Positions 50,443 through 55,649 of a stretch of DNA of 64,000 nt are shown one piece after another. The position numbers and the translations under genes were made by a program. A model generated the notes under the pieces. It was not told the origin of the DNA. It did no database searches and was given only the letters and a program-made list of their open reading frames with translations. Source of the stretch: Bradyrhizobium diazoefficiens (GTDB lineage: Bacteria > Pseudomonadota > Alphaproteobacteria > Rhizobiales > Xanthobacteraceae); the NCBI RefSeq assembly GCF_016616425.1, contig NZ_CP067101.1, positions 2,728,001-2,792,000 on the forward strand, in the 5' to 3' direction. Every line of letters begins with the position of its first letter. Position 1 is the stretch's first letter.

Positions 50443-50682
50443 GGGCGTCCCGTCCCGAGGAGGTTTCGGATCGGCGTACATGATTGAGAGAATGGCGCCA
50501 ATGGCGGCAGCGCGACCCCCTCATTCCGGAATGTGGCTTCTCTGGATCACCGGGCCACTATGGCGCTTGCCAAGTGTCTGCCGGCCGTCACGACGACGGA
50601 CATGGACCGGCCGACGTTATGTCCCGGGAAATGTGATATCCTGCCAAGCAGGAAGCGTCTTGATCTGCGGCTAGCGACGGCA

Positions 50683-52113
50683 ATGTCTTCGTCCGAGAGT
50701 ACAAGTCCGACCAGCGAGGCGGCCCGCCGGGAGCGGAGGAGGAGCAATTCCTTGCTCTTGGTTCTCGCCGTGGGATTTCTTGTTTTTGGTGCCGCAGCGG
50801 GCGCACTCTATTACGCGTTGCGGCCGGACGTTCTCCGGATCGCGGTTGGGCCGCCCGGCAGCGATGATTCCAAAGTCATTCAGGCGATGGCCGATGCGTT
50901 TGCCAGCGAAAGCCGAACTGTCAGGCTGCTTCCGATCAAGGCCGGCGGGGCCGTGGAGGCCCTCGCCCTGCTTGAGGCTGGCAAGGCCGACCTTGCGGTC
51001 GGCCGCGGCGATCTGGACATGCCCGCCGAGGCGCAGACCGTCGCTGTCGTGCGCAAGAACTTCGTTGTGCTGTGGGCCCCGTCCGGACCTGCCGGCAAGC
51101 GTTCGAAAAGAAAGCATTCGCCGAAAATCAAGGAGGTTGCCGACCTCGCAGGGCGCCACGTCGGCGTGATCGGCCGGACCCCGGTGAACGCTGCGTTGCT
51201 GCGCGTCATCCTGAGCGCCTCCGGAGTGGACGCCGACAAGGTCGCGGTAACGCACTTTGGCACCGACCAGATCGAGGAGCTTGCGCGCGATCGCACGCTT
51301 GATGCGTTCATGGCGGTCGGGCCTCTCGACAGCAAGATCACATCCGATGCTGTGCGCGCAACGGCGCGGATACGCGGCGAGCCGAAGTTTCTCGCCATCG
51401 AGACATCGGAAGCGATCGCCCTGAAGCACCCCCGATACGAATCGGAGGAAATCCCGCCCAGCGTCTTCAATGCGGATCCGGCTTGGCCGGGTGACGAGGT
51501 CGAGACGCTCAGCGTCAGCCATCTCATCGTGGCGAGAAAAAGCTTGCCCGAAACGACGGTGGCCGCGTTTTTCCGGCAGCTTTTCGCCGTTCGTCAGACG
51601 ATTGCGAGACAAGTACCGGGCGCTGCACACATCACCAAGCCGGACCTCGAGAAGGACACCGAGCTGCCGGTACATCGAGGGGCGGCGGCCGTCATCGACG
51701 GCAACGAACGAACCTTTCTCGACCGGTACGGCGATTACTTCTGGTTCGGGCTCCTGCTTCTTTCCGGGATCGGCTCGGCCGCCGCCTGGTTGCGTCGCTA
51801 TTTGAATCGCGGCGAAAGGGTGGACAACACCAGCCATCGCAAGCGGATCCTGGCCATGGTCTCCAGCGCGCGAACCGCGGACTCCAATCAGGAATTGCTG
51901 AGCTTGCAGCGTGAGGCCGACGCCATCATTGCTGAAACGCTGGAGTGCTATGATGACGGCGCTATCGAGGGAGAGGAGCTCGCGGCATTCGGGCTGGTGC
52001 TGGGCCTGTTGAGCAATGCCATCGCCGAAAGGCGAGCCATGTTGCAACGTGGCAGCTTCGAGACCGTCCGAGGAGCGGCATCAGGCCATGGTCTTGCGCC
52101 GCGCAGTTCTTGA
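50683..52113 (+). CDS. Membrane-anchored TAXI-family solute-binding protein
   Basis: A 476-residue protein. After a basic N-terminus (AARRERRRSN) comes a membrane helix LLLVLAVGFLVFGAAAGALY, then a periplasmic binding domain with LRIAVGPPGSDDSKVIQAMA and GKADLAVGRGDLDMP. This matches TAXI/NMT1-like binding folds. A second membrane helix (YFWFGLLLLSGIGSAAAWL) and a cytoplasmic coiled tail follow. No TRAP permease gene is next to it, in contrast to the operon at 11.8-17.8 kb. It may be a sensor-like or orphan receptor. Function unknown. Confidence 0.82.
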   Translation: MSSSESTSPTSEAARRERRRSNSLLLVLAVGFLVFGAAAGALYYALRPDVLRIAVGPPGSDDSKVIQAMADAFASESRTVRLLPIKAGGAVEALALLEAGKADLAVGRGDLDMPAEAQTVAVVRKNFVVLWAPSGPAGKRSKRKHSPKIKEVADLAGRHVGVIGRTPVNAALLRVILSASGVDADKVAVTHFGTDQIEELARDRTLDAFMAVGPLDSKITSDAVRATARIRGEPKFLAIETSEAIALKHPRYESEEIPPSVFNADPAWPGDEVETLSVSHLIVARKSLPETTVAAFFRQLFAVRQTIARQVPGAAHITKPDLEKDTELPVHRGAAAVIDGNERTFLDRYGDYFWFGLLLLSGIGSAAAWLRRYLNRGERVDNTSHRKRILAMVSSARTADSNQELLSLQREADAIIAETLECYDDGAIEGEELAAFGLVLGLLSNAIAERRAMLQRGSFETVRGAASGHGLAPRSS

Positions 52114-52167
52114 AGAACCTCCCGATCGGCGAATCATAGGAGCGAAAGGATATCCATCGCTCTTACT

Positions 52168-52548
52168 CTAGCTCCGCTCGAACGTATCGACGTTCGTGGT
52201 CACGGCGCGCCACCAGTTCACCGGCTTCAGCTTCGCTGGCTCGCCCTCCCTGGATGCACTCAGCGCTTGGTCGACAATCACGAACCAAGCGGTCTCCATC
52301 TTTCCGTGACGCAGCAGCCCGGTGTAGGAGACGGCGCGGTCGCCCGTCGCTGATGCGCCTACTGCGACGAAGGCGATGCAATTGCCCCTGTGAAAGCCGG
52401 TGACAGGTACCGCTTGTCCGAAAAAGCCGCTGTCTTCGAGCGCTGTCTCGAAGTTCCCCTCGATGCGACCGTTTGCATCATCGGTGATGCGCAAGATAGA
52501 GCCGAATTGATTTCGCCAGTTGCCGACCCAAGCGTTATCGGTTCCCAT
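52168..52548 (-). CDS. Divergent avidin/streptavidin-family protein, 126 aa
   Basis: The product VGNWRNQFGSILRITDDANG matches the first strands of streptavidin, where W-x-NQ-x-GS holds biotin-binding Asn23 and Ser27. GNFETALED corresponds to strand 3, with Tyr43 replaced by Phe. FHRGNCIAFVAVGASATG, AVSYTGLL (Trp92 replaced by Tyr), METAWFVIVDQ (Trp108 kept) and NWWRAVTTNVDTFERS (Trp120 and Asp128 kept) complete an eight-strand pattern. The ATG has AGGAGAA 6 nt upstream. There is no signal peptide, unlike secreted avidins. Fold assignment is from my reading of the sequence and needs a structure-based check. Confidence 0.7.
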   Translation of the reverse strand: MGTDNAWVGNWRNQFGSILRITDDANGRIEGNFETALEDSGFFGQAVPVTGFHRGNCIAFVAVGASATGDRAVSYTGLLRHGKMETAWFVIVDQALSASREGEPAKLKPVNWWRAVTTNVDTFERS

Positions 52549-52564
52549 GTCGGTTCTCCTGCGC

Positions 52565-54079
52565 TCAGCCAGCCGGCACGGCGCGCAGCCTGCGCAACCG
52601 ATGCAGTTCCTTGGCTGCGTCCTTCATCAGGCCGTCGGCGGCCTCGCGCTCCTGGCCGACGATGACTCCCGATGCGAAAGCCTGGGCACGGCGGTTTGAA
52701 GGCGGCGCCGTCAGCGCCGCGTCCGTTGCCAGTTGGCGGTGCGCCATGAAGTCGTTCAGCGATCCCAAGGCGGATTGGATCTGCTTCAACCGGTCGGAAA
52801 GATCTGCGAGCTCCTTCTGGTCGCGATCGCCGTAGAGGCTTCTGAAGAAGTCGACAGCATAGCGAATTTTCTTGATCTTGATGCGCAGTTTGTGCCGCTG
52901 TCTCGGCTCGAGATCGTTCAGGCGCTTGCCCTGCTTGCGCGCCTTTCTGATCCGCCGGTCGAGCACCTCCGCGGCGTAGGCGGCGATCGAGCGGTCGTCT
53001 TCGACGCGCGGTCGGCCGGTTTCGATCCACTCGATCACGTCGATTAGCAGGCGGCGGTAGCGCGCCGACATGGCCGCGTCGCGGGCACGCCTGAACGCCG
53101 CCGTTCGTTGTCGGGAAAACCTCTTGCGGATCGCGCGAGCGCCGCGCTTCGGTACCCCTTGCTCGGTGATCGGTTGAATGCTTTCCTTCAGGAACACGTC
53201 GATTTCGCGCGCCGGCGCCAGTTCGTCCGTGAGCCATTTCAGCTCGGCCTTGATTCGGGCCGTGCTCGCCCGCGGCAGGATATCGGCGAACAGCGAGATG
53301 GCCGCACGCAAGCGCCGCAGCCCGACGCGCATCTGATGAACCCCCTCGGCATCCATCTCCCGTACGGGATCGGCATTCGCCGTAATGTGACGGAGCGTCG
53401 AATGCGCGATCGCGTGGAAAGCATCGCAGGGTGACAGGTCGGGCTTCAGCGCGATCGGCTCGGCGTGCTGCGCGCCACCGCCGCTGCCCGGGATGAGCTG
53501 GTAACCCCGCTCCGCCTTGGAGCGCAGATCGAGCTCGGCCTCGGTTTTGCGTTCGAGATCGCGGGCGAGACGGAACAGGTCCGCGACGTGTCCGGACTTC
53601 AGTTCGAGCTCCAGCTCGGCAACGGGGCGTGATCTGCGCCCGGCGCTGATGCGGCCACGGTCAACCGCAATTTCGACCTCGCTCTTTTGGAGCCGCCGCG
53701 CCTGCGCCACACGATGGATGTTGGTCCGAAAGACCGGCTTCAGCTTGCGGGAAAGTTTTCCGCTTCTAAGGCGCCGGAGCGGCGTATGCCTCGTTTTCTT
53801 CAGGTCGGGGTTTGCACCAGATACCTCATGCTCCCATTCGCCGCGCGTCACGCCTGCCGCGCCGCCCGCCTTCACGGTCTGCACGTAACGTCCCTCCGTC
53901 TTGCGGACGCGCAGTGTCAGGCCATGGCGCCTGAGCTTGTGCTTGTTCGTGTCGTAGTAGGTCGACACGAGCATCTGCTCGGATCGGGCGCGGCTCCGTC
54001 CTCTCAAACCGCCGTCCCGCAACACTGACGACAATTTTCGCGGCGCGATGCGGAATTTCAGTTCCGTTTCTGTAGTCAT
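52565..54079 (-). CDS. CYTH-CHAD protein (inorganic triphosphatase-like)
   Basis: A 504-residue protein. The N-terminal CYTH domain has the E-x-E-x-K motif in TTETELKFRI, then STYYDTNKHKLRRHGLTLRV and FRTNIHR. A C-terminal CHAD domain of ~280 residues begins near AEPIALKPDLSPCDAF and contains VREMDAEGVHQMRVGLRRL and KLRIKIKKIRYAVDF, His- and basic-rich helices. CYTH enzymes hydrolyse triphosphate and CHAD domains bind polyphosphate, so polyphosphate or nucleotide-triphosphate metabolism is likely. It precedes the avidin-like gene by 16 bp on the same strand, so the two may share a transcript. Confidence 0.92.
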   Translation of the reverse strand: MTTETELKFRIAPRKLSSVLRDGGLRGRSRARSEQMLVSTYYDTNKHKLRRHGLTLRVRKTEGRYVQTVKAGGAAGVTRGEWEHEVSGANPDLKKTRHTPLRRLRSGKLSRKLKPVFRTNIHRVAQARRLQKSEVEIAVDRGRISAGRRSRPVAELELELKSGHVADLFRLARDLERKTEAELDLRSKAERGYQLIPGSGGGAQHAEPIALKPDLSPCDAFHAIAHSTLRHITANADPVREMDAEGVHQMRVGLRRLRAAISLFADILPRASTARIKAELKWLTDELAPAREIDVFLKESIQPITEQGVPKRGARAIRKRFSRQRTAAFRRARDAAMSARYRRLLIDVIEWIETGRPRVEDDRSIAAYAAEVLDRRIRKARKQGKRLNDLEPRQRHKLRIKIKKIRYAVDFFRSLYGDRDQKELADLSDRLKQIQSALGSLNDFMAHRQLATDAALTAPPSNRRAQAFASGVIVGQEREAADGLMKDAAKELHRLRRLRAVPAG

Positions 54080-54253
54080 GGGCGGCTTCCACTTGCCGAA
54101 TTCAAAGTGGCGCCAGCGCGGGAAGTTCCGATGCCCACGAGCATTTCAATCCAGACCATCGCTGCGGGCAACACGTCATGGAAACTTCACGGAACACGGC
54201 GCGCGCGTGCTCGATTGAGCCCGCAACATTCGCGCAACTGAGGGAGGGCGTCC

Positions 54254-54391
54254 TTGAGTCGAACGAACGCAATCGCGATTCTGGTCATCGTGCTCGTCCT
54301 CGCCGGCGGTGCTGCCGCGCTCTATCGTCTGGATACCGGTGAGGGAACCCGCACCAGCCAGGCGGATTCGACGAGGACCGCATCGGATTGA
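54254..54391 (+). CDS. Tiny membrane protein with TTG start, 45 aa
   Basis: AGGGAGG at 54241-54247 is followed by a TTG at 54254 that opens a frame encoding SRTNAIAILVIVLVLAGGAA and ALYRLDTGEGT, ending TGA at 54391. One transmembrane helix and a polar tail are evident. The ideal ribosome site makes translation likely. Function unknown. It points away from the CYTH-CHAD gene. Confidence 0.6.
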   Translation: MSRTNAIAILVIVLVLAGGAAALYRLDTGEGTRTSQADSTRTASD

Positions 54392-54519
54392 ACAAGCCAC
54401 GGCAGCGCCAGGAGCCAGGCGCCGACAGCGGCGGCGCCGACCGGCCCCTTCGGTTAGCTGACGTGGCAAATCGTTGCTCTAGTCGGTTAGAAAGCGACAG
54501 CTTTGGGAAAGGACAGGCC

Positions 54520-54714: not shown

Positions 54715-54999
54715 TCAATCCTGAGGTGCCCCCTCCAGCTCCAACAGCAGCTTCCCCGCCTGGTCCAGCAGCGTCCGGATCGCCCTTCGCTCCGCAATCC
54801 GCTCCTGTGTGAAGGCGCCGTGTTTCTGCGCATTGCGGTTTCCCCATGGTGCGCCCGATCCCGGGGCGCCGCCGTGCATGCGGCAGCGGAGCTTGCCGCG
54901 CACGGCCGGCGCGCGGCAGGCGAGGCCGCCGCGCGTGCCGGCGCCGCAGCGCGGGCTCGCCGACATCGCGCTCGTGTTGCGGATGTGATCGGCACTCAT
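54715..54999 (-). CDS. HGG-x-P-x-G motif protein, phage-like, 94 aa
   Basis: The product contains RMHGGAPGSGAPWGNRNAQK, a Cys-rich start (CGAGTRGGLACRAPAVRG) and HGAFTQERIAERR. The HGGxPxG-(x)n-GNxNAxKHG pattern is frequent in short proteins of prophages and in Bradyrhizobium islands. Its ATG overlaps the stop of the gene at 54996-55649 by 4 bp, so they are coupled. Function unknown. Confidence 0.78.
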   Translation of the reverse strand: MSADHIRNTSAMSASPRCGAGTRGGLACRAPAVRGKLRCRMHGGAPGSGAPWGNRNAQKHGAFTQERIAERRAIRTLLDQAGKLLLELEGAPQD

Positions 55000-55649
55000 G
55001 CGCTGACGCCTTGCAACGCCTCGGCACGACCGTGTTCGCGTTCGCCGGCTTCGCGGGATGGGACCACTCCCGCCTCTGGCGCGGTGCCCGGCTCGGCAAC
55101 GATCAGCTGCGCATGTTGCGCGACATTTCCCACGATCGCGCTGCCGCCGTCTTGCACCGACAGATTCTGCACCGTGATCGGACGCTCGCCGTTGCCGCGG
55201 TGGCGATTGAGAGCCTCCATCTGGGCTGTGAAGGTGCGGGCCAGCCGGGTCAATGCACGCGTGATGCCTTCCTGCTTTGCAATGTCCTCGGTGAGAGCGA
55301 GGCGGAAGGCCGAGCGCATTGTGGCGACGTGAACGGACACCATCTGTGCCGTCAGCATGGCCTCAAGGGAGTCCCGGGGCGCGATGCTCTTCATCATCGA
55401 GATCATGAAGGCGAGATTGGCTTCATCGGGCTCTTGCAGGATCACGCTGGCTTTCATCAATTGCTTGAGGATGCCGTGCAGCGCGTCGCGGTCGACGGCG
55501 CCGAGCGCGTCGGCCAGCAGCCGTTCTCCGGCCTGCGCGTCGGGATGCTGGATCACCATGCGTCGTCGGGTGAGCTTGACCCGCGGGCTCGGCCTGCTGC
55601 GATCGGCCGCGACGGACGTCGTGCTGTTGCGTGTCAGGGCTGTCGTCAT
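54996..55649 (-). CDS. Uncharacterised protein of phage/island type, 217 aa
   Basis: AAGGAGATATC directly precedes the ATG, an excellent ribosome site. The product is helical: LLADALGAVDRDALHGILKQ, MISMMKSIAPRDSLEAMLTA, RALTRLARTFTAQMEALNRH and RPITVQNLSVQDGGSAIVGN. The last segment with alternating V and G resembles the end of a DUF found in rhizobial prophage-like loci. Translationally coupled to the HGG protein. Confidence 0.72.
   Translation of the reverse strand: MTTALTRNSTTSVAADRSRPSPRVKLTRRRMVIQHPDAQAGERLLADALGAVDRDALHGILKQLMKASVILQEPDEANLAFMISMMKSIAPRDSLEAMLTAQMVSVHVATMRSAFRLALTEDIAKQEGITRALTRLARTFTAQMEALNRHRGNGERPITVQNLSVQDGGSAIVGNVAQHAQLIVAEPGTAPEAGVVPSREAGEREHGRAEALQGVSA

Follow-up and report, generated by a model that had tools for sequence, protein, structure and literature searches.

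A signal-less avidin-like protein of Bradyrhizobium diazoefficiens with an altered ligand pocket

Avidins are famed for their very tight, practically irreversible binding of biotin, and their bacterial function is not settled. The described proteins that come closest to the gene reported here are wilavidin (PDB 7ouq, 7our and 7p8y), bradavidin (BLR5658) and bradavidin 2, both with solved structures, and rhizavidin, a rhizobial avidin from Rhizobium etli, whose mutant phenotype has been interpreted as a failure to store biotin (PMC8914248). A 2021 survey of putative bacterial avidins, Bradyrhizobium strains included, predicted a signal peptide for about 50% of them, leaving about half without one, and describes a 'Metavidin' clade, whose biotin-site residues are the most altered, as well as a 'Bradavidins3' clade (PMC8033661). 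Here we describe an avidin-like gene on the minus strand of a 64,000-nucleotide stretch of the Bradyrhizobium diazoefficiens genome (contig NZ_CP067101.1, positions 2,728,001 to 2,792,000; hereafter the window). From sequence comparisons we infer ligand, affinity, oligomeric state and role of its product, P0001, which may be a cytoplasmic avidin reversibly binding biotin or a biotin-like ureido ligand, a reading to which we give a probability of roughly 45%.

Family, fold and cellular location

P0001 scored 29.2 bits (E 1.3e-6) with the Pfam Avidin family (PF01382), whose curated cut-off is 24, the match spanning residues 8 to 60 only, and since Avidin was also listed for all 22 members of the alignment of its relatives (alignment A1, E-values up to 1, best 2.4e-9), this match is not due to chance. 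The streptavidin-order motifs named in a preliminary description of the locus are all present (W11-R-N13-Q-F-G-S17, G-N-F33-E-T35-A, T-A-W88 and W-W113-R-A-V-T-T-N-V-D121-T-F), and the predicted structure, for which 20 alignment rows with 80–93% identity to the window protein served as input, is an eight-stranded avidin-like barrel of moderate confidence. Family score, relatives and model together bear out the proposed avidin-like identity; a search for a different fold or a better-matching family yielded neither, with Pfam and NCBIfam offering nothing above avidin/streptavidin. The NCBIfam Stavidin model gave 21.5 bits with a cut-off of 300, so that P0001 is not a member of that equivalog, and weak matches to DUF3991 in 4 of the 22 relatives (best E 0.0053) were set aside.

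Phylogenetic analysis of 54 avidin rows placed P0001 in a group of 32 sampled members that is split off by a long branch (support 100/99), with the bradavidin-type, bradavidin-2-type, rhizavidin-like and streptavidin-like rows all outside this clade. The clade was recovered in 100% of 200 bootstrap trees, and the tree tool flags long branches that meet. The rows (alignment A1, ten further members and 22 comparison avidins) were chosen from fetched loci and do not form a full census; L163, which matched none of the seeds, was left out. No NCBIfam model scored above its cut-off for the clade, and because its best PDB sequence matches are distant (E about 1e-6) it is without a close solved structure in the PDB.

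The best of the PDB sequence matches of P0001 was to wilavidin (E 4.7e-6), which was also its best Foldseek match; the two share the barrel and the N-Q-x-G-S motif, whereas wilavidin has Trp where P0001 has G64 and Y75. A literature search on wilavidin found no paper. Bradavidin and bradavidin 2 share Pfam family and genus with P0001, but the copies of these types examined differ in having a hydrophobic leader, Trp at the W92 position of streptavidin and Thr at its T90 position, besides lying outside the clade (100/99). One copy of each type was checked against PDB (L176 for bradavidin, E 6.6e-61; L212 for bradavidin 2, E 1.7e-55). The four rhizavidin-like copies fetched differ likewise, with a leader, Trp at both W79 and W92, and Thr at T90. 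Fibropellin avidin domains, in turn, are extracellular parts of larger eukaryotic proteins. They have the avidin fold and are said in the survey not to bind biotin (PMC8033661). The same survey may already include the signal-less clade, for which its Bradavidins3, described there as apparently potent biotin binders, are a poorer fit (PMC8033661).

With regard to cellular location, there is no ATG, GTG or TTG start upstream of M1 in the frame of the window gene, and the N-terminus of P0001, with ten residues preceding W11, is not hydrophobic. Among 62 clade copies, 34 have room for at most 15 residues ahead of the first barrel Trp, and in the remaining 28 the longest conceivable extension peaks at a hydropathy of at most 1.9, versus 2.1–3.2 in 11 leader-bearing avidins. 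This comparison is a hydropathy count rather than the output of a signal-peptide predictor, and it excluded L122, L123 and the split or broken copies L075–L078, L080–L082 and L084. A signal peptide hidden by a wrongly placed start was considered and rejected, there being no upstream start in the window and no leader-like stretch in the 62 copies. As judged by these sequences, the absence of a signal peptide proposed for P0001 holds, and is a property of every clade member examined. It is not unique to the clade, as no leader is evident in two of the 22 comparison rows, the streptavidin-like L154 and L156, and the earlier statement that known avidins are mostly secreted was too strong in view of the proportion with predicted signal peptides reported in the survey (PMC8033661).

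The ligand pocket and candidate ligands

In streptavidin the ureido ring of biotin is contacted by N23, S27, S45 and D128 and its sulphur by T90, with S88 near the valerate tail. Positions were transferred to the clade through the wilavidin alignment and the 54-row avidin alignment. The gene and five of its pocket codons are as follows, the last four codon assignments resting on the wilavidin alignment and on counts within the family.

52168..52548, minus strand: avidin-like coding sequence of 126 amino acids (P0001), an open reading frame with ATG start and Pfam match
52450..52452, minus strand: codon of F33, streptavidin Y43 position, Phe in 32/32 family members sampled
52357..52359, minus strand: codon of G64, streptavidin W79 position, Trp in 0/32
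52324..52326, minus strand: codon of Y75, streptavidin W92 position, Tyr or Phe in 32/32
52285..52287, minus strand: codon of W88, streptavidin W108 position, Trp in 32/32
52186..52188, minus strand: codon of D121, streptavidin D128 position, Asp in 32/32

The ureido contacts are present throughout the 32 members, with S27 and D128 in all, S45 as Thr in all and N23 in 31, and the W108 position is equally constant. At the other end of the site, the W79 position is non-aromatic in 32/32 members (Phe in 12 and Trp in 10 of the 22 other avidins), the W92 position is Tyr in 28 and Phe in four (Trp in 22/22 others), the T90 position is Val, Ala or Cys in every member (Thr in 22/22 others), and S88 is retained in only 4/32. 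In the L3,4 loop, position 39 is acidic (Asp in 30, Glu in two; D39 in P0001) and position 40 is Ser in all 32, and these two positions combined distinguish the clade. Judging by the alignments, the biotin site of the clade is conserved at its ureido end and rebuilt at its sulphur/valerate end, and the complete aromatic box of W79, W92, W108 and W120 by which high-affinity avidins are recognised was not found. The reported loss of the Trp79 and Trp92 positions was thus confirmed (G64 and Y75 in P0001, no Trp in 32/32), as was the altered pocket as such, with W79, W92 and T90 replaced in all 32 members; what did not stand is W79 as a universal avidin residue, given the Phe in 12 of the 22 others. 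Having retained the ureido contacts while giving up much else, this conserved signal-less branch lends itself to asking which part of the pocket determines the choice of ligand.

On the reading given above, P0001 would form a single avidin-type beta-barrel, with translation starting just ahead of the first strand and without an export signal. Its pocket would hold a ureido ring via the N23, S27 and D128 equivalents, Thr in place of S45 and the wall formed by W108, with the W79 and W92 tryptophans, the T90 sulphur contact and in most members the S88 tail contact gone, and with the acidic D39 in the L3,4 loop. Because the ureido end is kept and the sulphur/tail end changed, we propose a biotin-like ureido ligand that is reversibly held, candidates being biotin, biotinyl-lysine, desthiobiotin or a biotin degradation product. 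Affinity would be lower than in the secreted avidins, making binding reversible, and the protein would act as an intracellular buffer or reserve and not as an irreversible scavenger; the clade could also yield reversible binders of the biotin type. Several points weigh against this. Without W79 and W92, biotin might no longer be bound at all, and the Y43 position is Phe in 32/32 members, so that a hydrogen-bond donor is gone, Phe being found there in 5/22 other avidins too; a streptavidin Y43F-biotin complex exists, by the title of its structure. A literature search on Y43F and W79 changes gave only unrelated papers, as judged by title and abstract. The W120 position is non-Trp in 7/32 members (Trp in 25), a column which does not discriminate because other avidins are also non-Trp there in 13/22 (Trp in nine). 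No biotin gene was found among 13 Pfam-scanned proteins near avidin copies, a minority of all neighbours (three beside P0001, ten near other copies), the gene is patchy, matching in 61 of 265 genomes of the genus of which seven have split or fragmentary copies only, and the structure model drew on its 20 rows of 80–93% identity, with a predicted local distance difference test score (pLDDT) below 50 at residues 107–120.

Other explanations differ mainly in the ligand or in the place of action. It is unlikely that the ligand is not biotin but another ureido or cyclic amide such as hydantoin, an allantoin-type ureide of legume nodules or a carbamoyl metabolite. The constancy of S27, D128 and W108 in 32/32 members and of N23 in 31/32, together with a sulphur contact, W79 and W92 that are changed throughout, would fit such a ligand, and the replacements are themselves conserved (F33, T35, D/E39, S40 and Y/F75, each in 32 of 32), which suggests selection for a specific ligand and not decay; yet none of ten scanned neighbours points to a ureide or hydantoin pathway. 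A somewhat better, still doubtful case can be made for a change of function in the whole signal-less clade, from soaking up biotin almost irreversibly to serving in the cytoplasm as a reversible receptor for a different ureido ligand, with conserved pocket residues of its own; the biotinyl-lysine of carboxylases, a catabolite of biotin or a ureide of the nodule would then be the ligand. An ordinary high-affinity avidin for biotin storage, resembling rhizavidin minus the export, would agree with the avidin fold, the ureido contacts and the storage interpretation of the rhizavidin mutant, but we consider it improbable, as W79 and W92 are replaced and T90 is lost in 32/32 members. Such losses of Trp and Thr strongly reduce biotin affinity. 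In chicken avidin, two charged substitutions at Trp70 and Trp110 nearly abolished binding according to the survey, which is a partial parallel only since other residues are changed here (PMC8033661). A leaderless route out of the cell through a dedicated secretion system, with an extracellular role as antibiotic or anti-grazer agent as proposed for secreted avidins, is very improbable: a defence role has been put forward for avidins (PMC8033661) and leaders are present in the bradavidin and bradavidin 2 types of Bradyrhizobium, but with ten residues ahead of W11 and five beyond D121 there is hardly any space for a targeting part in P0001, and no secretion gene was present among the ten scanned neighbours. 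Short C-terminal additions were seen in a few relatives, for instance L004, L015 and L110.

Distribution and the CYTH-CHAD neighbourhood

The 61 matching Bradyrhizobium genomes were found at E 1e-3 or better, and 54 of them contain a near full-length copy. All 19 relative loci in named genomes were from Bradyrhizobium. A draw at family level gave matches in 25/391 genomes at 1e-5, all from the same genus except for one weak match (E 5.4e-6), and a draw at order level gave 11/397, eight of which lie outside the genus; two Rhizobium strains (three plasmid records) contain members at 40.5–41.3% identity. The clade of signal-less avidins therefore extends beyond Bradyrhizobium to Rhizobium and other bacteria of the same order. 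The ratio of nonsynonymous to synonymous substitution rates (dN/dS) was 0.034–0.131 by the NG86 method for comparisons with near relatives only, namely the named loci other than L040 and L045 (17 of 19); NG86 was usable in 17/17 pairs and YN00 failed in four. From these values the gene is maintained by selection where intact, and several genomes have it in broken or fragmentary form. A pseudogene reading was rejected for the window copy, which is intact and under purifying selection, as was a phage or viral origin: there were no matches in 50,697 phage records, and none of 12 pattern matches in viral contigs was confirmed by tblastn. Among the 50 matches listed from BFVD, one was to an avidin-named protein, from a pithovirus (E 2.1e-3).

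The gene directly upstream of the avidin gene encodes a protein with CYTH and CHAD domains, and its position, 16 bp ahead on the same strand, was as previously described:

52549..52564, minus strand: 16-bp spacer from the CYTH-CHAD stop to the avidin start, holding the AGGAGA
52555..52560, minus strand: AGGAGA, ribosome-binding-like site, six bases ahead of the ATG, read off the sequence
52565..54079, minus strand: CYTH-CHAD gene of 504 amino acids, directly upstream of the avidin gene, Pfam CYTH 67.3 bits and CHAD 174 bits

A leader similar to GGAGAACC..ATG precedes many relatives of P0001 too. Scanning of 51900–54400 gave no promoter-like sites and two terminator-like sites on the opposite strand, a number about equal to that in shuffled sequence, and no terminator-like site was reported in the gap.

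The preliminary description had treated this neighbour as informative, a view that did not survive comparison of the loci. CYTH-CHAD is directly upstream in only 27 of 54 Bradyrhizobium copies, all from one sub-clade; pairing was found in 27/31 copies with at least 75% identity and in 0/23 below this, and no member of the CYTH-CHAD cluster was present within the 5–6 kb flanks of ten copies outside the genus. Four avidins of the near group are unpaired, three of which lie behind a CBS-domain-like gene (L033/L005, L038/L012 and L010, with Pfam run on L033 only) and the fourth (L043/L016) behind a 99-aa gene. In all four, 44–79 bases upstream of the avidin gene match the 3' end of CHAD plus leader at 75–89%, and these remnants imply that the avidin gene was kept after separation, either because CHAD was lost or because avidin moved. 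Three genomes with an unpaired near-group avidin (G183, G047 and G113) had no CYTH-CHAD match at E 1e-60, and in the fourth genome, G244, the CHAD gene lies at another site, followed by a 29-residue remnant of the avidin. Conversely, CHAD is retained with a damaged or remnant avidin at four loci (L077, L080, L083 and L084). At L083 an intact cytoplasmic avidin gene behind a CBS-domain-like gene and a 29-residue remnant behind CYTH-CHAD are found in the same genome (2408–2779 and 7001–7087), which looks as if the avidin gene had moved or been duplicated.

It is hard to credit that the avidin and the CYTH-CHAD protein act together on polyphosphate granules or in phosphate metabolism. CHAD domains bind polyphosphate (PMC6537752), and the shared strand, the 16-bp gap and the pairing in 27/31 near copies would suit such a partnership. 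Set against it are the lack of pairing in the 23 distant Bradyrhizobium copies and in the ten outside the genus, the avidin genes kept behind a short CHAD 3' match and the CHAD genes kept with a decayed avidin, at four loci each. Furthermore, a permease-like frame, which from its sequence we take to be PiT phosphate permease-like, comes after the CHAD gene in three genomes that lack this avidin (L124, L125 and L127), and other sequence comes after it at other avidin-free loci. Distant avidin copies sit behind GDPD, PepSY, FAD-oxidase, EamA, LacI and other domain genes (ten neighbours scanned), and no paper linking avidin to the CHAD domain was found in the literature. The CYTH-CHAD pairing is a local and dispensable state and not a functional module, and its break-up makes gene neighbourhood a poor guide for this avidin.

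Other avidin loci and neighbouring genes

The host genome (7.14 Mb, one contig) carries a second, bradavidin-type avidin gene (L001, C1:6055469–6055705, minus strand), of which the first part and the conserved end are in different frames with a stop codon shortly before the gene. L001 therefore looks broken, as judged by its reading frames, which would leave the cytoplasmic protein as the one intact avidin detected by Pfam in the genome. The same genome carries bioB and a BioY-family gene. A literature search on avidins in the proteomes of Bradyrhizobium bacteroids brought up nothing beyond the survey (PMC8033661) and an immunoassay review. Six other genomes (G207, G257, G161, G064, G162 and G210) have the cytoplasmic avidin plus at least one further Pfam Avidin locus, and the clade bears on the question of why rhizobia maintain several avidins.

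In the window, the avidin gene is convergent with a plus-strand gene at 50533–52113 for a TAXI-type solute-binding protein of a TRAP transporter, in which the family match stops at residue 385 of 526. Further along the minus strand are genes for a 94-aa protein with the motif HGG..GAP.GN.NA..HG (54715–54999) and for a 217-aa protein (54996–55649), relatives of which turn up again near many avidin/CHAD loci.
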